NCBI RefSeq assembly: GCF_032362555.1
Contig: NC_083515.1
Location: 9,087,001 to 9,151,000, forward strand
From: Amyelois transitella
Lineage: Eukaryota; Arthropoda; Insecta; Lepidoptera; Pyralidae
Direction of reading: 5' to 3'
Length of the DNA stretch: 64,000 nt
A program made the position numbers and the translations under genes. The notes under the pieces were generated by a model. It worked only from the letters and a program-made list of their open reading frames with translations. It had not been told where the DNA came from and searched no databases. Positions 12,201 through 57,774 of this stretch are shown here, piece after piece. Positions within the stretch are counted from its first letter, which is position 1. Every line of letters begins with the position of its first letter.

Positions 12201-15200
12201 AATAAAATAGAATAGATTTATTTTCAAAATTGGATACAAGGTATCACTTATTGACGTCACATAACTTAAATCTAATCATAACTACTAATGTTGGTTATTG
12301 AAGGCTTGATTTGCTTAGTCTGTAAAATAAAATTTGACCACTGTGATGCTAGTTGGAACAATAACATTGAAGTAGATGCGAAAATGTTTGACCAAAATAT
12401 TGTATGCATTTGACAATTGTCACAGAGATCAAGTTATATTTTACAAAATTTCGGAGAAAAATCTTAAAGAGCTGTAAATAGCTTGATGGCTGGTGAAGGG
12501 GATAATACCACGTGTTTAGATTGCGCTCGCGCAGTTCCAGAACATTATCAGCATGGAGGGGTGCTGCAAGGGCGATTCTGACGCTAAACCCGAGGAGGAA
12601 GACAAGGCTCATGATATATATGAAGGGAAAACCCTGACTGTATTCCATTTGAGGCCTAAGAAAGAGATTGACAGGTCAGTATTCATTGTGAATTGTTTTT
12701 CTAAAGCGGTGTTTAGGTTGTGAATATAAACTTTTTATCGTTATGTTTTTAAGGAACTTTTAACAACTGAAGTAGACTTAAAAAAATGAATACAGAAATT
12801 CAGAAAATCGGTCTCCAAATTCCCAAAAGAGATAAAGGTATCTCTAATGGAGAGTGAGAGAAAATCTTTATTTCGTTTCGTAGGTCATTTACAGCATGTA
12901 AGAAATACGTTGTGCACTGTAGAATGGTTTGGTAAAGTTGTAATATTTGAATGCCTGCTTCACACTAACCCACTTTGGGAAATTTGACGAATGAGTTTTG
13001 TCTAGCTTCAGACGAACTAATCCTTTTCTACGTTGTCGGTAACAATTGGCCAAAACTTAGAAGGGACAAAGTGTTAATTTTCTCCGATATTTATGCAATA
13101 GGTTTCAGATCGATTAAATTTTCAGATCTGCAGAACCCAAGCTCAACATTCAAGAGTACATACGCGAGACCATGGACATCTCTGGTTTCGCCGCCAGCCT
13201 CGAAACCCTGAGGAAGCAGTTGGACAGCATCAGATACCTCCAGAGCGACGTCTCCGAGTACCCCAAGGTCATCTTCCTTGGCACCGGGTCCTGTATACCC
13301 AGCAAGACTAGGAATACAAGCGGGATGATCTTGCAAGTTGAGTTAGTATCTTTACTTATCTATTTAGAGGTCAATCAACCCTGTACACTCTTAGGAAAAA
13401 GGTGGACAGCATCAGATACCTCCAGAGCGACCCCAGTACCCCATGGCTTATTCTTCGGCATATGGGTACTGTATTGTATACCAGCAAGACCACAGCCCGT
13501 ATAGATTATCCCTGTCCCGTTTCACGTCATAATAAAAAGCGAAACAGCGATAGTTTTTCGCGCGATTCAAGTGATATATATTTTTTTTATTCTCCAGCGA
13601 CAACAAATCCATGCTTCTCGACTGCGGCGAAGGCACTTTAGGGCAAATCGTCCGGTTCTTCGGGCCGAAGCGAGTCAACTGGTTCTTGAGGTCATTGCGC
13701 GCCATCTACATATCACATTTACACGCGGACCATCATATTGGTAAGTTGTGATATTTGATTACAGCTAAAAATGTAAATGTAGTGTACACATGTAACTTTT
13801 TGAAAGTACTTCTTCTCAGCATTATTTGTTCAACGTGATTGTATTATTACACTTTTCAAAATATGTTCGATAATGGACTGGTTAATTATTTTGTAATTAA
13901 TAATTTAAACATTGTTTTTAACAATTAAAACTTTTGAAAAAAAATTACATTTGGAAATAATCTATACTAATATTATAAAGCTGAAGAGTTTGTTTTGTTT
14001 GTTTGTTTGTTTAAACGCGCTAATCTCAGAAACTACTGAACCGATTTAAATAATTCTTTCACTGTTAGATAGTCTATTTATCGAGGAAGGCTATAGGCTA
14101 CATTTTATCCCGGATTTCCTACGGGAAACGTCAACAATGCAGGTGAAAGTTGAATGAGTCGGCCATCTGCGAGCTTTCCACGCGAACGCTGCGCAAACCA
14201 ACAAAGATATAGTAAAACAATGTACTAAAGATGTGAAGTACTCATTTTTTGCCACAAAAAAGTCCGCGAGAGCATATATCTATCTCTTAAGGTTTACTTA
14301 CAATAACCACTTTTATGTTCATTTTTTAAGATTATTTTTTCATTATAAACATAAGTTATTTTGAAACCAATTTTCTTTAATTCAGTATTAATCCTTATCC
14401 AAATAAATATGTTTATTACTTTCGGCTTTTCATGTAGACTAAAATTGCCATTTACAGTATATAAATCAGACGAATAGGTTTTGAGATATAGTCGTTATAA
14501 GCAATTTGCAGCGAAACATTTAATACGGCGAACCAGCGTTCTTTCTAATACGCGTGACCGCCTGACCGCCTGAGGAGGATGTTTGCAAAAATAAATATGA
14601 TGCCCAAAATAACTATTCCACGCGGACGAAGTCGCGGGCACAGCTAGTGGTAGGTATATATCGACGAGATTATCGATCGATAACTATGGAATTTTTAGAA
14701 AACAACGGTAATTGATTTTATCATTTTTTGGCGTGACGACGTCTTATAATTCGATTGAGCCGGCTGCACACACGAAAAAACATGACTGATGCGGCGTTAC
14801 CTCGCTCTGAGGTGTTCCATGTAAGGTCTGAAGTGCAAGCGAGAGCGCGGAACGAGCGACAAAGAGGCGCAATCGGCCTTGGCGTTTCTCAGCGTATACC
14901 TCCTTCTCTATATATGTACATACAAATCTATTATACAAATGAAATTAAAAATTTCTTTTGAAAAAATGCTACCATTCCATCAGTATTTTATTAAGACGTT
15001 GTCACGTTCAACTATCGTCAGTAAACCGACTTTACGGACAATCGATTTTTTTTGCAGGTCTAATAGGCGTACTCCAAGCTCGTCGCCAGGCGTTCAAAGA
15101 CCATCCGTCACAAGAGTGTCACGCTCCGTACGAGCCACTTTATCTGTTAGCCCCTGGCCAGATTATGTCTTGGCTGAACATGTACGACCTGCAGTTTGAG

Positions 15201-17054
15201 AAGATTCGACAGGACTTCACACTCATACCTAATCAAAGTTTGGTAAGTTTATATAAAGTATCACTGTCTCCGTAAGCCTTGGATGATTGTTACAAGAGCG
15301 TCATGACACATACATGAGCTCCTGTATCTATAAGAAAATATGTACGAGGATGAGATTCAACAGGACGTCACTCTTATATTTGACCGGAATTCGGTAAGTA
15401 TTTTTTTAAATCTATCCATTGACCTAAAGACACTGTCACAGGAGTCTTCTTTGTCGTTACCTTTTCCCACTTTTTATGTGGGTATAGTATGTTAGTTTTT
15501 TCAATTACTTGCCATCTTGCCAAGTGACAGATTTACCATCTCACTGGTCTCCCTTCAACTCATTGCCTGTCACAGGAGCGTCGATCATTAAATGTGAAGC
15601 ATTGTTTTAATGTAAGTAACAAAGTTGTATAACACCTCACTCTCCACCAAATTTGAATATTTAAAAGGTATTTCTTAAGTCAATAAAACATGTTTTATAT
15701 CATAGTTTTGTTATTTTTTCTCACTTCCAGTTGCACACTGAGAAAAATCAAGTAGAACTGTCGCACACTGAGCAAAATCAAGTAGAACTGTCGTCAGCAG
15801 CTTTAGCGTGCATCGGAGTGTATCAAATCAGAACGTGCTTAGTGTCGCATTGTCCCAACGCGTTTGGCGTCGCCATAGATGTGGACCAACAGAACAAGAT
15901 AACTTATTCTGGTGACACTATACCTTGTGAGGAGTTGGTTAAGATAGGTAAGATTGAATTATGTTGGTTAATTTTATTGCGTTATACGTTTCAATGGCGC
16001 TTTACCTTGTAAATAATTGGTAAAAATAGGTAAAATTCAAAATGAAATTTGAGAACAGGAGTTGTAATTGACCACGCCGCGCAGTTCATTCATATTCAGT
16101 TATCAATACCATACCCAGACGTAGACGTAACCCAGACGCGGCGTGGTCATTTCATGTGGTCATCATCAATTCCTTTATTCGCAGGTGACAAATCAACGCT
16201 GCTCATCCACGAAGCGACGATGGAAGACGAGTTGGCGGACGAGGCTCGCATCAAGATGCATTCCACCACATCCCAAGCTATTGAGCAAGGGAAAAACATG
16301 AAGGCCAGTTACACAGTACTGACGCACTTCAGCCAGCGGTACGCGAGACTGCCGAGACTTAACGCGAACATATTGAACGACAATAAGAGTGTTGGCATCG
16401 CTTTTGATAACATGCAGGTTGGTAAATAATAGCAGTTTGGTTAATTTGTACGGTAAATTGTTTATAGCGCCATCTATCGGACAACGGTTGAGTTAAGTAG
16501 TAGCTTGAGAAGACCATGAAGGTTATTGTTCACACTTGAGCTAGCGATACGTGTGATTGCCGGGACTTACTCGTAACGCGAATATATTAAACGATAATAG
16601 GAGTGTTAGCATCGCTTTTGATAAGATAATCGCAGGTCGGTTCTCATTGTTTATGCAAAATTTCTATAACGCCATCTATCGGGCGACGGTTTAATTAAGT
16701 AGTAACTAGATCAAAGGAAGAATATGAAGGCTATGTGTACAGTAGTGAAACACTAAAATCAAGTCAATCAGATAACAGGAGTATTGGCATCGCTTTTGAT
16801 AACATGCAGGTCAATTCAATAAGAGGTTTCTGATAAAGTGAAAGGGTTAAAGATAAAGATATTATGATAATGATTTTCAGATCACAATGAGCGACCTGAA
16901 ACTTCTGCCGCACATGTACGCGCCTCTATTACAAATGTTCGCCGAGCACTGTGTAGAAATGGAGGCTAAAGCGGCGCACCGTGCTCGGCAAAGGGAACGC
17001 CGGCCGTCTTCCCCCATGGAAAGCATGGGTACGACTGCGCAACACAGTAGTTAG
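6288..17054 (+). CDS. ELAC2: Long-form tRNase Z (RNase Z, ELAC2), 16 exons, complete
   Basis: Metallo-beta-lactamase endonuclease that removes 3' trailers from nuclear and mitochondrial pre-tRNAs. Exons: 6288-6553, 6767-6953, 7439-7560, 8106-8293, 8614-8684, 9358-9523, 10096-10228, 11280-11372, 11710-11851, 12535-12674, 13126-13341, 13598-13740, 15058-15242, 15731-15947, 16185-16417, 16881-17054. Every junction keeps phase, giving 891 residues against 826 in man. The N-terminal half is the degenerate domain (YLFNCGESTQRL, ITAKTWTNIGGLPG). The C-terminal half is catalytic: FLGTGSCIPS near residue 553, LLDCGEG, the metal motif HLHADHH at about 615-621, then YSGDT and LIHEAT. The first residues are basic and Ser-rich, and a second Met at codon 35 (MPKANSGR) allows mitochondrial and nuclear forms. 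Exon 10 may start 15 bases earlier (12520) at an in-frame alternative acceptor. The gene carries several partial exon duplications, listed separately. Confidence 0.95.
7579..7740 (+). repeat. Dispersed repeat C, full copy
   Basis: Begins AGAATAGATTTATTTTCAAA, contains ACAAGGTATCACTTATTGAC and a GAAGCGGCGGAACAAACTAC block, and ends near CATTTTCATCGGAAG. The same unit recurs at least six more times in the window. It looks like a short 3' retroelement fragment; I know no name for it. It lies in ELAC2 intron 3. Confidence 0.7.
7936..8003 (+). repeat. Dispersed repeat C, truncated
   Basis: Only the first 65-70 bp of repeat C (AGAATAGACTTATTTTCAAA to ATTGATGTCACATTC), 200 bp after the fuller copy and in the same ELAC2 intron. 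Confidence 0.6.
8937..9192 (-). mobile_element. SINE-A copy, near full length
   Basis: An antisense copy in ELAC2 intron 5, from GTGCCGTGTGGTTCCCGGCA to ACGTGACCATATGTATGTAT. It serves as a good reference copy of about 255 bp: tail GTGCCGGGAACCACACGGCA, CCATGGGAAAGAGATGGAGT, AGTCGCCTTTTACGACATCC, GCTAGCCCATCGCCTAAAA, and head CATACATATGGTCACGTCTA. I see no A or B box typical of a tRNA, so its RNA source is unclear. Confidence 0.85.
9718..9948 (+). mobile_element. SINE-A copy in ELAC2 intron 6
   Basis: A sense copy with head (ACAT)n then GGTCACGTCTATATCC. About 30 bp between CAGTCTT and AATGATAGAATTGAG is deleted. The tail is GGTGCCGCGGTAACCACACG. Confidence 0.8.
9965..10038 (+). mobile_element. 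SINE-B fragment
   Basis: First 70 bp of a second repeat family: ATACATAAAATCACGCCTCT, TTTCCCGGAAAGGTAGGCAG, CCACTTGCCACGATCTCTGC. It sits directly behind a SINE-A copy. Confidence 0.65.
10262..10438 (+). mobile_element. RTE-like non-LTR retrotransposon, 3' end
   Basis: A short frame reads GKRSVGKPAAGWSDDIKKTA and then IAALRSKWKSIEEAYVQQWT before a stop. The W-S-D-D-[IL]-K-K-x-A-G and EEAYVQQW blocks are the usual last residues of RTE-type reverse transcriptase ORFs. A (GAA)n-like run (about 10411-10436) follows at once, as expected of RTE 3' tails. It is a dead fragment in ELAC2 intron 7. Confidence 0.7.
10621..10812 (+). mobile_element. Helitron-like non-autonomous element (family 2)
   Basis: CTAGCGACCCGCCCCGGCTT to AAATAGCGACTTTGTTTTAT. 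The same unit occurs inverted at 23998-24178, where it ends CGGGTCGCTAGTA. Codon-like Helitron marks (a terminal CTAG and a GC-rich subterminal stretch) are present, but a clear hairpin was not verified. Confidence 0.5.
10815..11054 (-). mobile_element. SINE-A copy, head-to-head with SINE-B
   Basis: An antisense copy missing about 25 bp near GGGATAGGCTTATAGGCGAT. Its ACATAC head runs directly into the ACATAC head of a sense SINE-B copy at 11055. Confidence 0.75.
11055..11200 (+). mobile_element. SINE-B copy, 3' truncated
   Basis: ACATACATAAAATCACGCCT, CCCGGAGGAGTAGGCAGA, ACATTCATAACTCTCTTCAT, GCCGATTTCGGGTACTC. It ends about 80 bp before ELAC2 exon 8. Confidence 0.7.
11570..11688 (+). repeat. 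LINE-like 3' tail (repeat E)
   Basis: ATAAGTCCGCCATTATACAT and later GTGCAATAAAGAGTTTACAA, then (CAAA)n. Related tails occur at 37893-38022 and, inverted, at 49601-49735. Such ends are typical of CR1/jockey-type LINEs. It stops about 20 bp before the acceptor of ELAC2 exon 9. Confidence 0.55.
12199..12287 (+). repeat. Dispersed repeat C, truncated
   Basis: ATAGAATAGATTTATTTTCA to ACATAACTTAAATCTAATCA: the first 85 bp of repeat C, in ELAC2 intron 9. Confidence 0.6.
13393..13497 (+). repeat. Decayed partial copy of ELAC2 exon 11
   Basis: GGACAGCATCAGATACCTCC is exact to exon 11. The match continues, with small deletions and substitutions, through AGTACCCCATGG, CTGTAT and ATACCAGCAAGAC. It lies about 50 bp behind the exon's own donor and keeps no open frame. 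Confidence 0.85.
13961..14647 (+). mobile_element. Helitron, non-autonomous, long variant
   Basis: Begins TCTATACTAATATTATAAAG after A and ends GTCGCGGGCACAGCTAG before T, the 5'-TC / CTAG-3' ends and A/T insertion point of Helitrons. It is 687 bp, longer than the roughly 265-bp form seen elsewhere in the window: the ends match but the middle has an unrelated roughly 400-bp filler. Located in ELAC2 intron 12. Confidence 0.8.
15336..15401 (+). repeat. Decayed copy of the 3' end of ELAC2 exon 13 with its donor
   Basis: ATGTACGAGGATGAGATTCA, CAGGACGTCACTCTTATA and TTCGGTAAGTAT align with the last 55 bases of exon 13 and its donor (ATGTACGACCTGCAG, CAGGACTTCACACTCATA, TTGGTAAGTTT). It sits 94 bp downstream of the real donor. 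Confidence 0.8.
16418..16809 (+). repeat. Two decayed tandem copies of the 3' end of ELAC2 exon 15
   Basis: Unit 1 is 16418-16635 and unit 2 is 16636-16809. Each holds an intron-derived part (GCGCCATCTATCGGACAACG, and ACGCCATCTATCGGGCGACG) and a copy of the exon end (GGAGTGTTAGCATCGCTTTT, and GGAGTATTGGCATCGCTTTT, against GAGTGTTGGCATCGCTTTTG in the exon). Unit 2 keeps GATAACATGCAGGT, a potential competing donor. Neither unit is open throughout. Confidence 0.85.
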
Positions 17055-19600
17055 CTGTAGATTTGAATTTAAAATCGGAACGCGGGTTCGTTCCAATTTT
17101 GTTTCCTTTTTGTTGAAGGCCAATGACATTTTATGAGAATGTAGATAGGTAGTTTTGAAGTTATAATCATTGAAACTGTAGCCACGACGCTGTTATTTTT
17201 CAGTCCAATATCTACTTTATATTTGAACTTTGATGGCTATCAAAAGAGGTTCGATTTTGACTGCTAGTACGATTTTTTTCCAGCATTATGTTGTAAGTAC
17301 ATTTATTTTCATTTTTTTAATTAAAATATTAGAATGAATTGAATGAAGGAATACTTATTTGTATATCAGGCTTAAATATTTTGTTTTTGACTTTTTGCCA
17401 ATATTTTAGTTTTATTAAACTACCCACTTAATTTTTCTTATTGTGCATTAAGCATATAATGTTGGTGTATACAGTGTAGGTGTGGTATGAAGTTGACTCA
17501 GAGGACTGAAGCTTTTATTTATATATGTTGTGTGCCTTTAAAATGTTTCTTATCATGTATGTCATAGATTCACATGCTGTAATTTGACAGATAAAACAAA
17601 TTTCAAAGGTATTGGTTGTTTGACTGTTTGAATAGGTTGGTTGACAGCTGTTAGTCGTGGAAGTGATCTTAATTTTTATAGACGCGTTCGTATTCTAAGA
17701 TTTATATAAGTCTTTCATTCAACGAACACATTTTAAACATATCAAAACATTTAAAAAAAGGGAATGCCAGTGATAATTTAATCGCGATCACTTTTCAAAC
17801 TTTGTTGTACCCTCTCGTTTTAAGTTTTTCATCTGTCAAAATTAATAAATTGTAGCATTTACAAAGAATTGTGATTTGTTGATTAGCTTGTAAATATAGT
17901 ATTTATTCTCATACTGTGCTTAGTACATTGTTAGAGCTGTTAAATAATAAATGTATGCAATGTTGTATTGTTGTTTCATTATGTAGTTGTAGTAGCCTGT
18001 CCGGTAAAACATTGCTGTAGTAATCATAAGTAGGCAGTGTGATAGCCAACATACGACTAATATGCCATTTTTTTTAAATAACGAATTCAACTTTTTTTAC
18101 TGAAATTGCTTCTATCGCCAATAAAGTTTAACCAGAAATAAAGCAGAATTAGCTATATTTCACCTAAAAAAAAATTAAAATATTGAACTGGAAATAATTA
18201 TTCAAAAAGTAAGCAAAACTCAACGCTATTAAGTAGTCAGGCTTGTTGAAGGCTAAAATACTTCATATTTTGCAACAGGTCGGTTTATACATACATACAT
18301 ACATAAAATCACGCCTCTTTCCCGGATTGGTAGGTAGAGCCTACCTCTTTCCACTTGCCGCGATCTGCATACTTCCTTCGCTTCATCCACGTTCATAACT
18401 CTCTTCATGCAAGCTCGGCGGTTTCGGGTACTTTTGACCTGACCCTTTACCAGGTCGGTTTATATTTGATTGTAGTGCACTACTGTCAAATCACATCATC
18501 ACATATCACTGGATATGTCACAACTATGGTTAGTAGATCTCGTTGACAGGTCTACTTTATTTCTGGTCAAGCTGTAGTAAACTCGGTTGCGCCCTCACCT
18601 CCCTTAAAATGAGCTCAAGGTCTGCTATATCTGCCTCCAATACTGGTATTGTTATGTCAAGTTTTAACATGATGAGACTCCCATTTGACCTCCGCAACCT
18701 TACAGAAAAAACCTAATCCATATTTGATCATGGTTACACATTCAGTTACTTTAATATGCAGGTTTACTCACGATAAAAGTCAAATAATACCCCAGGCTCC
18801 TCTCCAGAGTGGTGAGGATACATTTGGGACTAAAGCCAGGAGGAGGAAGACTCACGATGTGTAAAATGACACTGCTGAATCTGTATTCTCAAATCTTGGA
18901 CTCATTATATATTTCGATGATCGTAATATTATATTTTTTTCTTCACTAAGGTTACAATAGAATGAACGACCACGAACAGATTCCTTCTGGATGTCGTGTT
19001 ACAGAGACGGCGGGCAGATCTGCCAACTACCGGGAGAGTAATGCTTCACGTTAGTTCTTTATTATCAACATAGTGTTTATATGTCACCGGAACGTAACAA
19101 GAACCGCTAGTTTATTCTCCGTAGCGATCAATGGCGCAGGAGAGGAACGAGATGGAACACGTGACTTGTTCAACCAATCAGAGCGCTCAAAACGTTTGGT
19201 CATAGCTTACTTATTATTTTACGCGTGATTTCGGTAAGTTTATCAATTTGCGGAAACGGGAAGGTGAAATAATATGTTTCATCTCTCGTTTAGAATCCTA
19301 CGATAGTTTATAAACTTCATAATAAACTTTTTGTTATTTTCTGTTGACATATATAACGAAGTTTTATACAGAAGAAAACATTTTAGCGCCAAGAGATTGC
19401 GAGTGATATTTAAATCGCGATATTTTCATTGGTTCGATTTTTAAACCCTGGCTAACTACAAACTCGAAGACAGCATTTGATGTGTTCGCAGATTTGGTTA
19501 GACAGTACAGACAGACAGATTTGGTTACCCAGTAATTACATTTTTCAGTAAAGTCTGTGTACACATTTATTTTTCTGAAAATTTTCATGCTTTGAAAAGT
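17055..19600. other. ELAC2 3' UTR and intergenic DNA
   Basis: Candidate polyadenylation signals AATAAA at 17844-17849 and 17946-17951. A SINE-B copy lies at 18291-18455. Around 18780-18860 is a fragment of another repeat (CCAGGCTCCTCTCCAGAGTG) that recurs near 50180 and 52720. At 19140-19240 a CACGTG E-box, an ACCAATCAGAGCGC CCAAT box and a GTAAGT donor look like a promoter with a non-coding first exon, perhaps of the next gene. Confidence 0.5.
18291..18455 (+). mobile_element. SINE-B copy
   Basis: (ACAT)n then AAAATCACGCCTCTTTCCCG, CTTCATCCACGTTCATAACT, GCGGTTTCGGGTACTTTTGA and CTGACCCTTTACCAGG: about 165 bp, nearly the full unit. Confidence 0.75.
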
Positions 19601-19601
19601 T

Positions 19602-19877
19602 TTGACAGTCTGTTGTCTACCAGACCTTAACGTGAAAATTGATATACCATTGGGTACTAAAGAAAAAATTGTCCATTGGGATCGGAGGTGGTTCAATGAA
19701 TACACTGGTGAACAGATGATAGACCAGCTTCAGATAAGACGAGTGGCCGATGAGATTCTCTCTCTCATCTCTGCGTGTTCCCGGTTGCACCCTCCACAGA
19801 AGTGTTTCGGGGCCCGGGGTCCCAATGGTCGATGAGATTACGAGGGAAAAATTGTCTCAAAAATATATAAACATTGG
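19602..19877 (+). other. Open stretch, possible first coding exon of the next gene
   Basis: The frame is open from about 19602 to a TGA at 19833-19835 (KIDIPLGTKEKIVHWD, then FNEYTGEQMIDQLQIRRVAD). The same frame resumes after the stop up to a good GTAAGT donor at 19878, in exactly the phase that exon 20041 needs. A weaker donor at 19784 (CG/GTTGCA) would also give that phase and skip the stop. So the frame may be the gene's N-terminus with an odd splice site, or upstream untranslated sequence. A second ATG frame (19829, MVDEITREKLSQKYIN) runs across the same exons and stops after about 70 codons in exon 20433-20506. No family recognised. Confidence 0.35.
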
Positions 19878-20040: not shown

Positions 20041-23000
20041 GTTTGAGGCAAAAGTCAAAAGGGATGACGATAACCGGAATGGTCAGAGGCCCTCGATGCG
20101 CCAGCGCCGCAAAAACACACTCCGGACCAAGTATGTCCTGTTATTATTTAGGTTAGTTACAAATTGTAATCTATCCATTGTTATTCGATTGGTAGCTTGG
20201 TGGTAGAGAATATATGGGTAGTGAAATAAGTTAGAGTGTTACTCTTCCACGCAAAAAGTACGAATCGATTTGGTTGAAACTTTACAGGAATACAAATCTA
20301 AATATTTAATAGTTGTGTAGTATGTTACCTTACGATTTTCATTATAATTTTTACATACATTTTAAATCGTAAATGCCAACATTGCATGTGGATTGTTAAA
20401 TATAAATATCTTGATTTAGGTTCTTTGCACAGCGATCTCGGTTCTCCCCACGGCAGCGCGAGGAGTCAGCCCGACAGTTCTTCGGTCAAATCTTACGAGT
20501 TGAATGGTAAATAATTTTCAATCGCATCACCAAAATATTTCTTAGGAAAGTTCATATAATGATCTGATACATCAACCCAATCTCTCACTAGCACCTTTGT
20601 GCTAGGATGCCTTTGTTTGCATACCTATTAGGTGCTTATAGTTTATGATAGGCATAGGGTACTTATGGTACATAGGCACCGCTTTTCGCCATTTCTCTTT
20701 ACTCTTAGTCCGGTCTGCAGTGTATTCAGTTTCAAGATCATTGATGAACGATTCATCCAACTTGATCGGTTCAAAAAATGGACGTATCGTGATAAAATTG
20801 GAAATATTCCTATAAGTACCTACCTACTCACGTAGTGATTGTTAGAATGATCATTGGCCTATTTCGTAGGCTAACGTATTTAATCTAATTTCCAGAGCCA
20901 TTTTAATGTGTCTTTCATACACATTAAAATGGCTCTGGAAATTAGATATGAGATAGATATGAGAGGTATTTTTGTGTTACTTTATAGTTCGTACAATGAG
21001 TGACACAAACCCGTCGTCGCGACGGATGACCTCAAGGCCACACTCTGGGTCCACGTCGAATTCTGAAAGTAAGTTCAGTAAAACTTTTTTTGTTACGGAA
21101 GGGGAAAGCCTTTTTTACGGCCTGACCCCCTTGAAACTTCACCTAGGATAGTGTGGTACTCCTGGCATCTGGTGTGCCTATACCCACTAAAACTTTTCCG
21201 GCGCGCCATTTTGAGGGCCTCGTGGGGAATCTGCTCGTTATTGCCGTTACGAACATAATTAATATTTTTAGATTTCAGTGCAATTAATTAATACAAAATA
21301 ATTATAGGGTCTAAATACAAAGCTACCACGTCGCAGATGAAGAATGCAGATCGCATTTCTCTCTTGTCGAATAATCCAAAAAGTCGGGCTGGTTCGAGAA
21401 CTACCATCGAATCGACCGAGAACCCTTCTGGTAAAGATTTTGTTTTTAATTATTATCTTTAAAGTATTACCTGTATAATTTAAAACCTATATACCTACAT
21501 GGTCATAGAATGCTACAAATACATATATTTTGATTCTTATGAAGACTGTTCTAGAAGGTAAAATTTTAAATCCAGTTTAGTGAGTAACTGGTTTATTTCA
21601 AAATTTATTACTAGTAAAAGCATTTAGGTTTTAGGTTCACTGTAGTAGATAGGTAATCCTGCTAATAGTTAATCTGTTTTTTGGTCCTATTTCTAAATGT
21701 AAAAACCTTCGTGAAATGCATAAAAAAGGAGTAAGAAAAGAAATAAGAGTTGGTACTTATTTTATCGTTACTACTCTATACCCAATATACTCCGCTGTTA
21801 CCTACCAATTTGACGAACATTGAAAATGGATTTTTTTGTTTCATCGTCCAAAATATATCCATTTTATTTCAGTGATGAAAGTATTATCAAATACGGAAAG
21901 ATCTAAAGTGGAGGAAAGTCCTTACGGTAAACCATTGGTTACTAATCTAAACAAGAGATTGAAGATTATGCGTTACACACCTACTCGTAAGTATAACTAA
22001 ACTCATAACAAGTATCGTGACTATACAAAAAAATGGCGTTGCACTTTAAAATCCTTATCAATATCCATCGCGATTTGACTCATTATCTGATTCTCGTACG
22101 AAATAATTAGAAAATATTGAGAGGGGGTTAAAGTATAATAGCGGTATTATTTGTGTTTATGTTTATTTTTGCATAAACCATTTTTCGACGGCCTCGGTTG
22201 CGCAGCGGTAGTACGCTTGTCTGTGACACCGGCTGTCCCGGGTTCGAATCCCGGTCAGGGCATGATGAGAAAAGAACTTTTTCTGATTGGCCTGGGTCTT
22301 GGATGTTTATCTATATAAGTATTTATTATAAAATATAGTATCGTTGAGTTAGTATCTCGTAACACAAGTCTCGAACTTACTTCGAGGCTAACTCAATCTG
22401 TGTAATTTGTCCCGTATATATTTATTATTTTACCTTTTAATGTCTTTTTTAGCAATTATATTCAACCAAAAGGATTTGGCTGTTATGCGACCGACTTCAG
22501 CGCGGTCGCCGATCAGATCAATGAAATGTACGTTATTAAAATCACTCACACTTTTTTACAGCTAAGTATTTAAGTTTTCCACTGAGTAAATAAGAGACGG
22601 TTGCCTTAATGTTTAAGTTTCCTTACCATATTTTTCCTCTTTTCCCTCGCCGTAAGAGCATTGGTTAGCAAACAAACTAATGTAGGTACATCACTCAAAT
22701 CATTGGTATATGGCTGCGGTGGGATTTGCACCTTGTTCACCTTGTAACCTTTGACAGATAATCGTTCGATCTACGATCCTAAAGAAACCCCTTTTTTCTT
22801 TCACGTTCCTTACTCTCTTTATCTTCGCTTAGGTAGAGAAATACTTAATAAGTTGTTGAATATAATGTTAAACGATTTATTTTGATTAACAGCGTCTTTA
22901 TTTAACGATAAAGAAAATACGAAAGCAAGGCAAAGTTCCTTACGCACGCAAGTACCAATTTCTACCAGATCCAGTAAAAGTAAGTACGTACATATTTCCG

Positions 23001-26000
23001 CTTCGTTCCTGTGGTAATTGCCAGTAAAAAAATGCTATGTTACTGCTAAAAGTTTTATCTGCTCTATTCCAAATATCATTGATATCGGTCCAGTAGTTTT
23101 GAGTTTATTCTTTACAAATTGAAAAAAAAAACAAATCTCCAAAAAACAAAGCTCCATAATTAGTACCTATGGATGAATAAGAAGAATACGGAACTAGGTT
23201 TATATTCTATTTTCATATTTAGACCTCAGAATTTTAAATGATACGCGAAAAGATTTGTCGAAGTTGAGAAGGTTTGTTCAAGACTGCTGGCTCTGTCTAT
23301 CCCGCAAGTGATATACTTATACGTGATTATATGGATGGATGGATGGAGAAGGTTTGATGATAATGTAACTTAGTACTTCTTCTTTTTTCAAGCGAGTCAC
23401 AAAGAGTCGATTCAATCGTCGAATTTGTTCAAGCGACCCGACAGTAGTAAATCTAAATTAGGTACGCAATTATATACACTGTTGTTTTATTACTCAAGTA
23501 GATATTTGAGAATGGCGATGCGTTTTTGTAGAAGTTAAAACGGGAAGCTCAAGAAGTTACTCATCTTTCTCTTGTCCTTTTCCCACATTCAATGGGATTA
23601 GGTCTCTCTCTAATCTTTCTGCGCTGAAAGTCCGTACTGGGTTGTCAAGAAGGCACTAGGTACCTACTATTTGAAAAATTAAAATCCTATTTTTTTTTTG
23701 GTCTTACGATGACCAAAATTTCGGGCTAATTGGGAACGTGTAGGCTATTCCTAATGAAGCCAACAGACAAGCGTACATTTGTATCAATAATAAATATAGT
23801 AATTATTAATGTAATATGATACTCACTGATATAAATATAGTAATTATTAATGTGATACTCACCGATATTAATGTTTTGAACAGCTACCAGGAGTAATATA
23901 TCCGGCAACAAGATGCATGTTACGTTGAAAAATCCTATTGAGAAGAAGTTCACTGAGAGACCGGATGTCGCGAGATGTAAGTGATGCTATAATCACTACA
24001 TAGTATAAAACAAAGTCGCTTTTTTAGTCTGTTTGTCTGTATGCTTAAATCTTTAAAATTACGCAACGGATTTTGATGCGGTTTTTTGTAACAGGTAGAG
24101 TGATTCAAGAGGAAGGTTTTTATGTATATTTTTTTCCGAATTTTGCACCTGTGCGAAGCCGTGGCGGGTCGCTAGTATAAAATAAATCGTTCTGTTTGCA
24201 CCCTTACTTCGTTGGCAAGGAGCACGGGGCCGCCTGATTTTGGTAGGTAATCTATACCAATAATATAAAGCTGAAGAGTTTGTTTGTTTGAACGCGCTAA
24301 TCTCAGGAACTATTGGTTCGAATTGAAAAATTATTTTTGCGTTGAATAGACCATTTATCGAGGAAGGCTTTAGGCTATATAACATCGCGCTGCAACTATA
24401 AGGAGCAAAGAAGTAATGGAATATGTGAAAAAACGAGGAAAATTATTCATCCTTGAGGGCTTCAGTGATGCCCAAAATAACTATTCCACGCAAACGAAGT
24501 TGCGGGCACAGCTAGTGTTTTTATATGAAGCGACTTTCGCCTGACTGCTAGACAGTAGGAAATTCTAACTTTGTAGGGAATTCTAACTTTGGTTTATAGG
24601 ATCAACATTTTTTTTTAAATTTGACATTAAGTATAACCATTTCGACAGCCTCTGTGGCGCAGCGGTAGGACGCTTGTCTGTGACACCGGATGTCCCGGGT
24701 TCGAATCCCGGCAGGGCATGATGAGAAAAAAACTCTTTCTGATTGGCCCGGGTCTTGGATGTTTCTCTACTATATAAGTATTTATTATTAAATATAGTAT
24801 CCTTGAGTAAGTATCTCGTAACACAAGTCTCAAACTTACTTCGAGGCTAACTAAATCAGAGTAATTTGTCCCGTATAGAGGAAAGTCACCAAATATGGAA
24901 TAGTATCCTAATATGGATTACCTTCATTTCTCTAAGACTATAAGTATAGAAATGCAACACTCGACATCTTCTGTTTCATTCGGTCTACTAACTATCGCAC
25001 TCACACCATCGAGTCAGTTGCGCGAACGCTTCACGTGTGGCAGGCGTGTTTTATTTTGTTATCGTGCAGAAAATTTTAAAGGTAAGTAATAAATGAGTAT
25101 AACCAGCTGTTATGTTTGTATACAAAAGTGTTATACTATTTAGTATATCGGTATTATGTTTATTTCACCATTTTGTGATCTTTTATCATTAAAATATTGT
25201 GACTTGAAAAAATATTTGGAAGAGTTTGAACTAGTATAAAAATCCAAATATGGACAGTCGTGGGTGTCTAATTATGGAATATTTCATAATTAGGTCTTAA
25301 TATTTCATAATGAAAGATACTTGCTATTTTTTCTTTAAAAAAATATATGTAATGTTTGTTTTTAGAATGTCCGGTTCACAATCAACCAAACGAAAAACCT
25401 GGGATGAAGAAAAAATGGCACAAGCTATAAAATTCGTCCGGGAAAAGAAAATGGGGTATTTGAAAGCGGCACAGCATTTTCAAGTGCCTAGGAAAATGAT
25501 TTAGAAGATAAAAATATGAAGAGACAAGAAAAAGAAAATAAACTAGTCAAGACAAAGAATAAGAAGAAAACTGCGAAGAGAAACAAACAAACGAAGAAAA
25601 ATAAGGATGATAGTGAAGAAGAAGACTCTGAGGAACTAGACGTTATCCAGTTTAGTGAAGGTAGTGAACAAGATGAGTTGATGGACCAAGTACGCCCTGA
25701 CTCTGCTGATGCAGAATGTATGTTTTGTTCAAGTCTTTTTTCCATGGATAAAAGTGGAGAAAGCTGGATTAAATGCTTGATGTGTGGGCTCTGGGCACAT
25801 TGTGATTGTGCTGGTCCAGAGTTTGATACTTGGATCTGTGACTTTTGCAAGTAATTATGTAACTTCTTTCATTTATCACAATATGTTATATTCATTTGAT
25901 TGATCTCAAAGATATTAATGTCCATTTTTGTTATTGTTACGTTGATTTATGCTTATATTCCATATATGGGTACCTATTCCATATTTGGTTACTCATTTGT

Positions 26001-28921
26001 GATTTTGTGTTAGATTTTAATTTGATTACTAATATATTTGATTAAAGGCTGTTAATTACTACATATAAATGTATGACTGATTAGTAAAAACATTAAACTG
26101 GTTTAATTTATATGAAGTTTTTTTTTTATATCCCAAAAACAAAATGGTATTCCATATTTGGTGACTTTCCTCTATATATTTTTTAATTGCTACTGGTGAA
26201 TGTGACGTCACAACTGATGATTTTAACACTATATCTATCCTTTTTTTATTGTTTAAATCCATTCGTGGTAATAATGTATATGACACATCATTCTATTTAT
26301 TTTTATTGCCTTATCTCATTATGATTTCTATGATACTTTCGCTCATATGTAGATTATACTTATACTAATTTATTTATTATTCTAGCCACCAAAACCCCAT
26401 TGTTTCCGAGGTTCGGCGGCAGTCCAAAGAGGGAAGGCGTGGAAGCCAATGGTGAGTCCAATAACTTAGACAACTTATTACAGAACTGTCTTACTGTATT
26501 TAATATAGCGTCGGTGATCTAACGGTTAAGACGCTCGAGTTGAAATAGCGTGATGCACAGAGAGGTATAAAAAGCGATACCCATCAGACCCCTGTGGCCA
26601 GAGTTCAAGTTGGTTTTGATAGGAAGGGAAAAATAATGTAATCCATAATTCCATACTAGGTTATAACAAAGAGAAAATATATGTTTTTGTTTGTAACGAA
26701 TAAATTCAAAGTCACAGTGGCACAGAGATAGAATTGACATACATACATATAATTACGTATATATCCCTTGCGGGGTAGACAGAGCCAACAGTCTTGAAAA
26801 GACTGATAGACCACGTTCAGCTGTTTGGCTTAATGATAAAAATGAGATTCATAGAAAAGACCTTCGGGATAAACTATAGGCTAAATGAGAATTTAAAATT
26901 GCTAAGTAGTTGATCGAAAAAACGCTCCCGTTTGCAGTGATGATGAACACAAAAATACCAGTGATGACGAAGCCTCGGTCCCCCGAGCGCAGGATGTCGG
27001 CTCACCAAATGCACAGAGAGTCGCCGAAGAAGTTCGAACCGCTCCGAGACATTGTCACGGAGAGACTGAAACAGCCGCTCTGTAAGGAGAAGATCGGCCC
27101 GCACCCTCATATGCAGTTGGCCAGACCTCATTGTGAGTTATTTATCTTGTATTGCAAGGTGCAACCTATGTTGTATTTTCAGGAAAAATCTGGCGGAGAA
27201 AAAGTGTAGGTATGCAAAGTGGGTTAACCAAATAATATCTACCACAAGCGTTACTAGTTTATTATTATACCTACACACATAACGTAGTTGTTCGAAAGTA
27301 ATAGTCACGTCTAAACCCCTTGTGGGGTAGACAGAGCTAACGGCCAAAAGCTTCATGATGGCTTAGGCCTATCGCCTACAAGAGGAATCCCAAGTTTATC
27401 GCTTTTTACGACATCCATCAGAAAGATGGATCGGTTTTATTCTAAAGTGCAAAAACCACACGGAATAAGTCCATTAAGAAGTCTTCTTTATAAATATATT
27501 AATCTTTTTCCAGCGGTATTATACAGCAGCAAATCTTTTAAGCCACAGTTGGAGGATATCAAGAGCTCCTTCCTATTGCTGAACAGACAGACTCGAGAGC
27601 CTAAACAGAAAACCAACGAAGTTGAAAAGGGTAAAAGGATTTTATAAGCCTAAATTTCATACAGCCTGTATAGCCATGTAAATGTTTCTTGTTTCCGCAA
27701 AAGAGAAGGTTTTTCTTAACTTCTACCAAGACGACGATAAATGCAAAATTAAATAAGTTTTCCGGCGGAATATTCTCATTCGAATGGTCTCTCATTGGAA
27801 TAATGTTTTGAAATTTGGAATGTCGTATTCTTTACGGTTCTTTTCCAACAAACCTACGTACGCTTGAACAACGCATTTCCTAAGGATTAAATATGTTTTA
27901 TTCAATTTTGGAAAGTCTCCAAGTAACTCTATGTACCTATACTTCGGATAAAAGTTTATTGGTCATCATACGTAAAGTTGGGAGAATCATTAATTATAAT
28001 ATTAAAAAGACTTTAAAGTTAAGCTACTTAGAATATATGTATTGAGAATGAGGTAATGCTTAAAAATGTTTCTTTCTCCCAATTCTACTTCATAGTCTGA
28101 CGCCCACACAAACGGAGTCATGCTAAAATGGACCAATCATGTTATGTTTGAAGGAATGAATCTCTCTTCTTGACTGTACAAAATTTTTCATTATCATTTT
28201 TATAACTGTAATACATACCTATTTCTCTTATTATTTTAGTGAAAAAAGGACTGGAGCTACACTCTTATTCTTTTGCAAGGAAAACTGATTATGACTAGTT
28301 GAGGTGCGATGTGCAGTGTCCAGTCCCATTTTCACAAGGTAATATATGAAATTTACTCATTTGTTTGCTTAAATACCGTAATACTTTATTGAAAAGTTTT
28401 AATACCTTCTTTAAGTGTTGATATGTAAAATGACTGATTTAACACAATACATAAATGAAACTTTATTGTTTCGAATCTTATTTTCGTTTATAATTTCAAA
28501 TTTAAAAAAAATATAGCTATATTTTTTCCTCTTTATATGTATTGATATGCAATCAAATTTTTTAAAATGGACTTAGGTATTTATATTTTTTCGACTTAAA
28601 TCATGGACCTAATAATAATTTATAATGTCCATGATTTAAATGTCAAAATTGAGCTCATGTCACGACGGTATCTAAGCAATACCTAACTTCCAATTATATT
28701 TGAAATTTTCCATAGATAATTATTTCTTCATTTCAGGCATCCCAAGGTCACCTCCACCAGAGAGACGTCCAGTAATCAATGAAGAGGAAAGAAAAAGGCA
28801 ACTAATGGAAGTGAAAAAGAAATTCCAGAGCAGAAGGTTTTTCATAGACTCGAGTGTGTATTTCCTCCTATTTCTGTTACTCCTAGTCAATTTTCTGTTA
28901 AACAGTAAAAACACATGCTAA
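20041..28921 (+). CDS. Unrecognised Ser/Arg/Pro-rich protein with C-terminal membrane-anchor exon
   Basis: Exons: 20041-20130, 20433-20506, 20988-21068, 21308-21430, 21873-21986, 22453-22527, 22893-22979, 23393-23461, 23884-23976, 26386-26451, 26938-27132, 27514-27630, 28240-28338 and 28737-28921. One frame runs through all of them. From 20988 on, every internal exon is a multiple of three and is bounded by phase-1 introns. The start is uncertain: ATG at 20096 (MRQRRKNT), ATG at 20997 (MSDTNPSS), or an upstream exon. The roughly 400-residue product is polar, basic and Ser/Thr-rich, with many SP sites (SARSPIRS, PRSPERR, GGSPKR, HRESPKK) and no folded domain I can see; NTKIPVM in a basic context resembles an EB1-binding motif. 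Exon 28240-28338 has an in-frame TAG at 28296-28298, so inclusion ends the protein as FARKTDYD. Skipping it joins exon 28737-28921, which encodes a charged coiled stretch and the hydrophobic tail VYFLLFLLLVNFLL. AATAAA lies at 29035-29040. Confidence 0.7.
20883..20947. repeat. Perfect 29-bp inverted repeat with 7-nt loop
   Basis: Arms 20883-20911 and 20919-20947 are exact reverse complements (arm starts ATCTAATTTCCAGAGCCA); the spacer is CTTTCAT. It lies in the intron 41 bp upstream of exon 20988-21068. Confidence 0.95.
22195..22432 (+). mobile_element. tRNA-derived SINE, copy 1
   Basis: The head is tRNA-like: an A-box-like GTTGCGCAGCGGTAGTACG and a B-box GGTTCGAATCC at usual spacing. A shared non-tRNA body follows (TGATTGGCCTGGGTCTTGGA, GTATCTCGTAACACAAGTCT). 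It is not a functional tRNA gene: the acceptor stem does not close and the body continues. The second copy is at 24643. Confidence 0.85.
23270..23344 (-). mobile_element. SINE-A head fragment
   Basis: TTCAAGACTGCTGGCTCTGT, CTATCCCGCAAGTGATATAC and (GGAT)n: only the 5' 75 bp of the repeat, antisense. Confidence 0.6.
23998..24178 (-). mobile_element. Helitron-like element (family 2)
   Basis: ATAGTATAAAACAAAGTCGC to GGCGGGTCGCTAGTA, the inverse of the unit at 10621-10812. Confidence 0.5.
24251..24515 (+). mobile_element. Helitron, short non-autonomous form
   Basis: TCTATACCAATAATATAAAG to TTGCGGGCACAGCTAG, 265 bp, inserted between A and T. It shares TTTATCGAGGAAGGCTTTAG and AACTATAAGGAGCAAAGAAG with copies at 46737, 52097 and 62090. 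Confidence 0.85.
24643..24877 (+). mobile_element. tRNA-derived SINE, copy 2, split by a transposon
   Basis: Same unit as 22195-22432 (TGTCCCGGGTTCGAATCCCG; GTATCTCGTAACACAAGTCT). It stops at CCCGTATA where the element at 24878 begins, and the expected continuation TATATTTTT appears behind that element at 26173. Confidence 0.85.
25367..25504 (+). pseudogene. Transposase N-terminus, psq/CENP-B-like HTH
   Basis: ATG at 25367 directly behind an acceptor. KRKTWDEEKMAQAIKFVRE and YLKAAQHFQVPRKM form the Pipsqueak-type helix-turn-helix of pogo/Tigger transposases, which binds terminal repeats. The frame stops at TAG 25502-25504, where the internal deletion joins the C-terminal part in another frame. 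If expressed, it would be a bare DNA-binding peptide. Confidence 0.75.
25516..25854 (+). pseudogene. Transposase C-terminus with PHD-like zinc finger
   Basis: 112 codons: a Lys-rich stretch, an acidic linker (EEEDSEELDVIQFSEGSEQD), then a Cys/His set CMFCSSLF, KCLMCGLWAHCDCAG and WICDFCK, spaced like the PHD-type finger found at the C-terminus of some Tigger transposases. The upstream in-frame codons run back to the deletion point near 25500. Confidence 0.75.
26505..26612 (+). mobile_element. tRNA-like SINE fragment
   Basis: GCGTCGGTGATCTAACGGTT, AAGACGCTCGAGTTG and later GCCAGAGTTCAAGTTGG resemble degenerate A and B boxes. A related unit lies near 62450 (GTCGGTGGTGGAACGGTTAA). Confidence 0.5.
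26738..26857 (+). mobile_element. SINE-A, 5' half only
   Basis: Head to TTAATGATAAAAATGAGATT, then unrelated DNA. It ends 80 bp before exon 26938-27132 of the unrecognised gene. Confidence 0.75.
27300..27464 (+). mobile_element. SINE-A copy, internally deleted
   Basis: TAGTCACGTCTAAACCCCTT to AAAAACCACACGG; the region between GGGTAGACAGAGCTAACGG and ATCGCCTACAAGAGGAATCC is shortened. Confidence 0.65.
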
Positions 28922-29134
28922 ATTTATATTTTTATTTTATAATTAGCATTAGTACCTATTCATAACACTATGTTTCTTTGCAGAGTATGACAAAATTGAG
29001 GGGCTGAATTGGATATCGTGGAAATGAATGTACAAATAAACCCAATGTATAAAATTCCAAAGTGACAGTAACACTGTTGTGTATTATGTAAACGTTTACG
29101 AGCATAATGTATTAAAAAAAATTGAATAACAACT

Positions 29135-44063: not shown

Positions 44064-45512
44064 TAGTGTCCGACCGAAGGTCTATTTTTGGCCGAAGCCG
44101 AAGCCGATTAATCGGCTATCGCCACAACCTTCGGCCGAAGCCGAAGCCGAAGCCGAAGGTTTATATTCTCTCAGCACTCAGTAATTAATTTTGTTCAATA
44201 TTGTCTACAAGCTACAATTAATATTAAAATCATTTCAAAACCTCAATATTAAAGGTTTATATATTGACTGTCTCATATAGAAGTTGATGATATATCATTG
44301 AGGTGGTTGGTTTAGAGATAAACTAGCTGTTGCCCGCGACTTCGTCCGCGTAAATTTCGAGTTGAATTTTAATCATACAGTCAGATACAGACAGACAAAA
44401 AATGTAAAAAAAAAATTCTCTATCCGTTTCAGTCAAAATATTAAATGTACAGAAAAAATATTTTTACCGTTTTATTATATGTAGTATTTTGATTTTCAGT
44501 TTTTTTACATAAAATACTCAAACAATACAAAAAAAATATATTTTTAATAATAAAAAATATCTTGTAATTGTTGGGATTCGAACTTGGACCGCCAACTTCA
44601 CAGTCTCACGGGCTAACCACTGGACCATCGAAGCTGTTGCGTTGGTGTCGAAATTAAAGTAGACTACATACATATGGTCACGTCTTTATCCCTTGCGGGG
44701 TAGACAGAGCCAACAGACTTGAAAAGACTGAATGGCCACGTTCAGCTATTTGACTTAATGATAGAATTGAGATTCAAAAAGTGATAGGTTGCTCGCCCAT
44801 CGCCTAAAAAAGAATCCCAAGTTTGTAAGCCCATCCCTTAGTCGCCTTTCACTTATATTTATATGTTATAGGTATAATGCCGTCGTATAATGATAAATGA
44901 CTTTGAATTTTTAATTTCGTAACTTATTTGCCGGCATACTGATGCCTTGAGTTCATTCAAATGTCGATAACTTTTTTTTTTGTGAACCGATTTTGATGAA
45001 ACAAACGAAAAGAAAAAATGAAAGTTTGAACTAAATCGGTTTAGTACTTTCGGAGATAATCGTGATCATACATACAGACAGACAGACAAGAAATTAAAAA
45101 AAATATTTTTGCTTTCTATTATTCATTCTAAGTGTCCCTCTATCCATTTCAGTCGAAAATACTAAATGTACAGACAAAATATTTTACTGTTTTATTATAT
45201 GTATAGATAAAAGTTTGTGATTTACCTACTGGTAAAAATAATGATTTGATTTCTTACAAAAATACTCGTTTAAATACACGTACGGACTTGTTTTGATGCA
45301 TGCAATCAGCAATGCGATATTTTGACAGTGACTCCCCGCCGCCTCATGACTTTCGTAACAGTTCGTTCAATCTCGACGGTCGCTCGGACCTTCGGCGAAA
45401 CCTTCGGCTTCGGCCGGATTTTGGGCCGAAGCCGAATGTTTCGCCGAAGGTGGATTTTTTGGCCGAAGGTGGCCGAAGCCGAAGCCGAAGCCGAAGCTTC
45501 GGTCGGACACTA
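44064..45512 (+). mobile_element. 1.45-kb TIR element with CCGAAG repeats, copy 1
   Basis: Ends are exact inverted repeats (TAGTGTCCGACCGAAG and CTTCGGTCGGACACTA). Both are followed inward by arrays of the hexamer CCGAAG (GGCCGAAGCCGAAGCCG). The body holds a tRNA-like stretch in minus orientation (44577-44640) and a truncated SINE-A (44667-44852). No transposase. 5-bp flanks TTTAA are shared, but an 8-bp duplication is not clear in this copy. The second copy is at 56342-57774 in the same orientation. Confidence 0.85.
44570..44645 (-). mobile_element. tRNA-derived segment inside the TIR element
   Basis: On the minus strand GATGGTCCAGTGGTTAGC is an A-box-like block and GGTCCAAGTTCGAATCC a B-box-like block, with an anticodon-loop-sized gap. 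It has no proper acceptor stem and occurs identically in the second copy, so it belongs to the repeat, not to a tRNA gene. Confidence 0.6.
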
Positions 45513-56341: not shown

Positions 56342-57774
56342 TAGTGTCCGACCGAAGGTCTATTTTTGGCCGAAGCCGAAGCCGAAGCCGAAGGTTTATA
56401 TTCTCTCAGCACTCAGTACTTAATTTTGTTCAATATTGTCTACAAGGTACAATTAATATTAAAATCATTTCAAAACCTCAATATTGAAGGTTTATATATT
56501 GACTGTCTCATATAGAAGTTGATGATATATCATAGAGGTGGTTGGTTTAGAGATAAACTAGCTGTTGCCCGCGACTTCGTCCGCGTAAATGTCGAGTTGA
56601 ATTTTAATCATACAGTCAGATACAGACAGACAAAAAATGTAAAAAAAAATTCTCTATCCGTTTCAGTCAAAATATTAAATGGACAGAAAAAATATTTTTA
56701 CCGTTTTATTGTATGTAGTATTTTGATTTTCAGTTTTTTTACATAAAATACTCAAACAATACAAGAAAAAATATTTTTAATAATAAAAAATATCTTGTAA
56801 TTGTTGGGATTCGAACTTGGACCGCCAACTTCACAGTCTCACGGGCTAACCACTGGACCATCGAAGCCGTTGCGTTGGTGTCGAAATTAAAGTAGACTAC
56901 ATACATATGGTCACGTCTTTATCCCTTGCGGGGTAGACAGAGCCAACAGACTTGAAAAGTCTGAATGGCCACGTTCAGCTATTTGACTTAATGATAGAAT
57001 TGAGATTCAAAAAGTGATAGGTTGCTCGCCCATCGCCTAAAAAAGAATCCCAAGTTTGTAAGCCCATCCCTTAGTCGCCTTTCACTTATATTTATATGTT
57101 ATAGGTATAATGCCGTCGTATAATGATAAATGACTTTGAATTTTTAATTTCGCAACTTATTTGCAGGCATACTGATGCCTTGAGTTCATTCAAATGTCGA
57201 TAACTTTTTTTTGTGAACCGATTTTGATGAAACAAACTTTAAATGTTATTCTGAGTTAAAACAAAGCAATTGGTGAAAGTTTGAAGTAAATCGGTTTAGT
57301 ACTTTCGGAGATAATCGTGATCATACATACAGACAGACAGACAAGAAATTAAAAAAAATATATTTTTGCTTTCTATTATTCATTCTAAGTGTCCCTCTAT
57401 CCATTTCAGTCGAAAATACTAAATGTACCTACAGACAAAATATTTTTACTGTTTTATTATATGTATAGATAAAAGTTTGTGATTTACCTACTGGTAAAAA
57501 TAATGATTTGATTTCTTACAAAAACACTCGTTTAAATACACGTACGGACTTGTTTTGATGCATGCAATCAGCAATGTGATATTTTGACAGTGACTCCCCG
57601 CCGCCTCATGACTTTCGTAACAGTTCGTTCAATCTCGACGGTCGCTCGGACCTTCGGCGAAACCTTCGGCTTCGGCCGGATTTTGGGCCGAAGCCGAATG
57701 TTTCGCCGAAGGTGGATTTTTTGGCCGAAGGTGGCCGAAGCCGAAGCCGAAGCCGAAGCTTCGGTCGGACACTA
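56342..57774 (+). mobile_element. 1.43-kb TIR element with CCGAAG repeats, copy 2
   Basis: Nearly identical to 44064-45512 along its whole length, with the same ends, the same internal tRNA-like stretch and the same truncated SINE-A (about 56895-57085). Differences seen: a roughly 50-bp shorter 5' hexamer region and a roughly 35-bp extra piece near 57240. An 8-bp flanking duplication points to hAT- or P-type insertion, though it falls in a simple repeat. No transposase. Confidence 0.85.

Follow-up and report, generated by a model that had tools for sequence, protein, structure and literature searches.

We identified a single gene with 14 exons and 13 introns, all of them in phase 1, in the window (the whole stretch of Amyelois transitella DNA that was analysed, 64,000 nucleotides in length). 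The gene is real and unnamed, and its layout is of a known type. Our preferred reading, to which we give roughly even odds (a probability of about 0.5), is that it encodes a 55-kDa basic, mostly disordered protein that is anchored to a membrane at its C-terminus, with skippable exons that tune a tether. The region encoded by the 12 symmetric 1-1 exons would act as a flexible tether, linking an acidic partner, e.g. microtubules, chromatin or the lamina, to the membrane of the ER or nuclear envelope. As all tether exons are frame-neutral, the tether could be shortened or re-sorted by splicing with the anchor left intact. Skipping would probably be limited to one exon or a few and not extend freely to all of them.

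Exon borders, phases and reading frame

The initial annotation had proposed 11 internal exons of 81, 123, 114, 75, 87, 69, 93, 66, 195, 117 and 99 bp, each flanked by phase-1 introns. All 11 lengths are exact, and each of these exons is preceded by AG and followed by GT. The pattern reaches further upstream, to exons of 90 and 87 bp and an exon with an ATG, all joined in phase 1 (Table 1). When we re-derived the GT-AG borders of the 14-exon model, from which the 99-bp exon is left out, 13 of 13 introns were in phase 1, and all 12 internal exons (2–13) were symmetric 1-1. The ATG in exon 1, with an in-frame TAA about five codons (~12 bases) upstream and a weak donor (score 0.5) at the end of the exon, is a candidate translation start.

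Table 1. Exons of the gene model, the possible additional exon and the downstream poly(A)-like signal. All internal exons listed as 1-1 begin and end in phase 1.
Feature	Position	Strand	Description
Exon 1	18962..19049	+	ATG exon, 88 coding bases, ends in phase 1; added in this analysis
Exon 2	20041..20130	+	90 bp, 1-1; alone open in two frames
Exon 3	20420..20506	+	87 bp, 1-1; alone open in two frames
Exon 4	20988..21068	+	81 bp, 1-1
Exon 5	21308..21430	+	123 bp, 1-1; weakest acceptor of the model (-0.5)
Exon 6	21873..21986	+	114 bp, 1-1
Exon 7	22453..22527	+	75 bp, 1-1; alone open in two frames
Exon 8	22893..22979	+	87 bp, 1-1; two frames open; lowest codon score (-5.5)
Exon 9	23393..23461	+	69 bp, 1-1
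Exon 10	23884..23976	+	93 bp, 1-1
Exon 11	26386..26451	+	66 bp, 1-1; alone open in all three frames
Exon 12	26938..27132	+	195 bp, 1-1; highest codon score among the exons (11.9)
Exon 13	27514..27630	+	117 bp, 1-1
Possible exon 14	28240..28338	+	99 bp, 1-1 borders; in-frame TAG at 28296-28298
Exon 15 (last)	28737..28921	+	Basic helix and hydrophobic C-terminal tail; stop TAA
AATAAA	29035..29040	+	No earlier canonical poly(A)-like signal (AATAAA or ATTAAA) from 28001 on

The joined exons of the model read through 489 codons without a stop, whereas the two remaining frames contain 28 and 23. Pieces of intron of the same length contained a mean of 31.8 stops and a minimum of 16 (2000 draws). An unbroken frame of this length, free of stops, speaks against a decayed gene. 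GC content is 0.46 in the exons versus 0.34 in the introns. As had been claimed from the sequence, the neighbouring genes are less uniform: among 10 introns bordered by eye in two of these genes (part of their introns), four are in phase 1. The difference from 13 of 13 gives a Fisher P value of 0.002, and P is 7e-6 if a flat rate of 0.40 is assumed.

We also asked how many open symmetric exons of 60–220 nt with acceptable splice sites can be chained in one run at most, using cut-offs for the sites that were set close to the weakest sites of the model. The splice matrices used here, and in the gene finder, the candidate lists and the comparison of site strengths, are consensus values and untrained. 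On the strand of the gene, the longest chain was 12 exons in phase 1, as compared to three in phase 0 and six in phase 2; on the reverse strand the longest chains were two, four and zero. Joining the introns gave a chain of one in each phase, four other stretches of the window gave chains of at most four, and 60 dinucleotide shuffles, scored in phase 1 only, gave a mean of 1.3 and a maximum of four. The chain of 12 comprises 11 exons of the model, with exon 13 falling slightly below the donor cut-off, and an additional open, phase-1 symmetric candidate at 19624-19707 in intron 1. This candidate was kept out of the model; by eye, it is dissimilar to the other exons.

Codon usage, trained on 2014 codons of the neighbouring genes after one segment had been dropped for its stops, did not pick the frame. 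The model scored far above introns (mean of -79.3), with 32.7 in frame versus 51.3 in frame +2, and we rejected codon usage as proof of the frame on account of the higher score in frame +2. Synonymous usage scored 15.1, within one standard deviation of the mean for shuffled exons (9.1, SD 7.5). A simple gene finder that left the phase free did not have the power to recover the gene: of the exons that it called, 5 of 14, 3 of 8 and 3 of 4 agreed with the model. When restricted to a single phase, the gene finder scored phase 1 above phases 0 and 2 at each of its three settings. Ranking non-overlapping candidates without regard to phase placed 9 of the 12 internal exons in the top 30, two of which were read in phase 2; first place went to transposon sequence, and two candidates on the reverse strand scored 10.2 and 9.0. 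Support for the gene model comes from its borders, its open frame and the statistics of the chain; codon bias and conservation contribute none. The gene is of a sort that can escape a simple gene finder, as happened here.

The window also holds other genes and repeats. Pfam identified neighbours encoding DNAAF5, ARMET/MANF, a protein with VWA and UIM domains, which is presumably Rpn10, and a CAF1-family nuclease that we take for PARN. An ELAC2 neighbour was recognised by eye only, and a Pfam search with two pieces of it gave no fitting family. Decayed copies of ELAC2 exon and adjoining sequence lie just downstream of the originals, at 13387-13490 (76% identical to 13205-13308) and at 16533-16734 (71% identical to 16325-16526). 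Within the gene, intron 10 contains a DNA transposon (24874-26176) whose 29-nt ends are perfect inverted repeats. One of its frames begins with a Psq-type helix-turn-helix (Pfam HTH_psq, E 7.9e-7) and another has a sub-threshold PHD-like end (E 0.0014), with no transposase core in the two frames scanned; it is probably a non-autonomous element, of a type that we take to be pogo-like. Two copies of a SINE-like repeat, 91% identical, are found in intron 6 (22176-22418) and intron 10 (24635-24877), each with a tRNA-like head (Rfam tRNA) that ARAGORN assigned to tRNA-His. A stretch of 65 bases at 20883-20947, 40 bases before exon 4, is 92% identical to its own reverse complement and possibly forms a hairpin near the exon 4 acceptor. 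Elsewhere, a segment of ~1.4 kb occurs twice with 96% identity (44130-45512 and 56365-57774), a short frame inside it having no Pfam match above the cut-off, and at its left edge (3-863) the window carries a DDE_1 transposase domain (E 2.7e-36) in an open frame.

The predicted protein and the search for relatives

The predicted protein has 489 amino acids, a mass of 55.4 kDa, a pI of 10.7 and a net charge of +51. It is rich in Ser (14.5%), Arg (9.6%), Lys (9.4%) and Pro (7.8%), and order-promoting residues make up 8–33% of the residues in exons 1–13. This composition suggests that the protein is mostly disordered, a property that we infer for the chain as a whole. The initial annotation had described a disordered protein rich in Ser, Arg and SP; the Ser and Arg richness and the low content of order-promoting residues agree with this description, but there is no RS domain, with no clear excess of RS dipeptides (11 versus 6.9 expected, P 0.06) or SR dipeptides (6 versus 6.75 expected). 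[ST]P sites do not clearly exceed the expectation from composition (10 versus 8.2, P 0.29).

We considered function from motifs, namely KEN, CDK-like SP sites and SxIP, which in a basic disordered context marks EB-binding proteins, and dropped it, as none clearly exceeds composition. [ST]P.[KR] occurs 4 times versus 1.56 expected (P 0.07), KEN once versus 0.16 expected (P 0.15), and SxIP, written as [ST]xIP, once, as TKIP at residue 329, versus 0.31 expected from composition (P 0.27). Since SxIP, KEN and SP sites do not rise above composition, we name no partner. An origin of the exons by duplication or from a repeat was not supported: blastp among the 15 exon peptides gave a best E value of 0.014, over 11 residues and without composition correction.

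Exon 15 encodes the only hydrophobic stretch in the protein. The best 19-residue window spans residues 465–483 (mean hydropathy of 2.2), whereas windows starting before residue 419 reach at most 0.27. A single hydrophobic segment at the C-terminus, with none elsewhere, is the arrangement of a tail-anchored protein, a class that is inserted post-translationally and has its N-terminus in the cytosol, and the tail is likely to be a membrane anchor. Structure prediction for exon 15 alone, without an alignment, gave one helix over residues 15–59 of 60 (mean pLDDT 80.1, pTM 0.40). The protein ends in NSKNTC. A possible additional last intron, in phase 1, lies at 28905-28983 (acceptor at the 99th percentile, donor at the 75th); if used, it alters the C-terminal residues, and the protein then ends in ISWK.

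The gene had been annotated as matching no known family, and our searches agree. Pfam, run with the whole protein at E values up to 1, returned nothing above threshold, its one match being to RGI1 (15.6 bits against a cut-off of 25), a match that we take for chance. With single exons, the matches were again all sub-threshold (RGI1 in exon 5, and a phage terminase family and YhiY in exon 12), and exons 13 and 15 had none. A search of the PDB gave no matches at E values up to 10. No relative was confirmed in viral contigs (4 pattern matches) or prokaryotic contigs (25), as expected, because neither is an insect collection. Literature searches by word name no such gene, a result that cannot prove the sequence absent from print.

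Potential exon skipping and the possible exon 14

Joining every subset of exons 2–13 kept the frame, created no stop at a junction and left the tail unchanged in 4096 of 4096 combinations. The proposal in the initial annotation that any subset of the exons can be skipped therefore holds for exons 2–13, but not for the 99-bp exon: it carries an in-frame TAG and so is no neutral cassette, despite being a whole number of codons in length. That exons 2–13 give rise to a large set of isoforms is unproven.

A less probable explanation than the splicing-tuned tether, and one that we consider rather unlikely, is that the same gene makes the same protein by constitutive splicing, in one form in all tissues, with the uniform phase being a by-product of intron origin or of the tolerance of a disordered chain. 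A frame-neutral layout is by itself silent on use. Donor scores match those of the neighbours (2.12 versus 2.00, P 0.88), and acceptors are weaker than those of the neighbours but not significantly so (1.77 versus 2.96, P 0.11), indicating that sequence cannot tell cassette from constitutive use. Moreover, the reported link between exon symmetry and disorder in human comes mainly from collagens, outside of which symmetry is little higher in disordered proteins (44.41% versus 41.88%; PMC4838654). By contrast, the run of 12 same-phase exons far exceeds what the bordered introns of the neighbours show, and if frame neutrality was not selected for, something else must have produced the run, for which this explanation offers no specific candidate. 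If the exons were constitutive, the gene would be a clean example of a frame-neutral layout that does not imply alternative use.

Exon 14 bears on a further alternative, that the protein is soluble and basic, with a main form that ends elsewhere, e.g. in exon 14, and that the tail exon is minor or wrong. Including exon 14 keeps the frame, and the TAG then ends the protein without its tail in all 4096 combinations; this stop lies 40 bases before the exon 14 donor, such that the position-dependent decay rule, with its limit of ~50 bases, would spare the transcript. Apart from its tail, the protein is also very basic and hydrophilic. However, the exon 15 acceptor (4.2) is at the 100th percentile. 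There is also no AATAAA or ATTAAA between 28001 and 29035, which makes exon 14 unlikely to be a last exon in its own right. The splice sites of exon 14, at the 92nd and 97th percentiles, are ordinary: the 7384 bases of introns 1–12 contain eight pseudo-exons that are as strong or stronger, one of them symmetric, corresponding to a chance expectation of ~1 of any length, and 0.15 symmetric, in the 1106-base stretch around exon 14. Exon 14 is indistinguishable from a chance pseudo-exon, and we lean slightly against its being real; a soluble main form is improbable.

We give little credence to a more elaborate form of the tether reading, in which combinatorial skipping of 12 unrelated exons sets the length, charge and phosphorylation sites of a repeat-free, detachable tether and a thirteenth, stop-bearing cassette frees it. 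A partly wrong model, made of pseudo-exons, two joined genes or a decayed gene and uniform only through the picking of borders that fit, is equally improbable: exons 2, 3, 7, 8 and 11 are each open in more than one frame when taken alone, codon usage is no guide to the frame and intron 1 offers one more fitting candidate, but neither shuffled sequence nor joined introns gave comparable chains and the long frame is unbroken.

Comparison with known systems

Like SR splicing factors, the protein is rich in Ser and Arg; we rejected membership of that group, as Pfam finds no RRM and there is no clear RS excess. KASH proteins have a lumenal C-terminal peptide that ends in a PPPX-like motif, and neither the NSKNTC terminus nor the alternative ISWK has such an ending, so this assignment was rejected too. 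The closest parallel to anchored and soluble forms of one protein is LAP2 (TMPO) of the nuclear envelope, for which splicing of one gene is described as producing mostly isoforms with a C-terminal transmembrane anchor and one that is soluble (PMC4053830). For the gene described here the soluble form is a prediction only, and membership of the LEM/LAP2 family was rejected, as Pfam finds no LEM domain.

The layout of the gene belongs to a described class, that of successive symmetric exons, defined as at least three adjacent symmetric exons of one phase (PMC4838654); here there are 12 in a row. The protein is not collagen-like, in contrast to the proteins that carry the human link between symmetry and disorder. 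Genes with almost exclusively symmetric exons are known, and hence the layout alone is not unprecedented: symmetric exons are reported to make up 97.25% of exons in the nebulin metatranscript and more than 73% in TTN, NEB and OBSCN (PMC9222585), and the titin PEVK region is described as having many small exons, with 113 annotated in human (PMC6469411). As in this gene, most exons of nebulin, titin and obscurin are symmetric, making skipping frame-safe, and those genes are heavily spliced. They encode giant muscle repeat proteins, however, whereas the gene described here has 12 short exons without clear repeats, with no clear sign of exon duplication of the titin and nebulin type, and encodes a basic, Ser-rich chain with a hydrophobic tail. 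If many of its exons are optional, it would serve as a small model, free of repeats, for how splicing alone can tune a disordered tether, apart from the giant muscle proteins.
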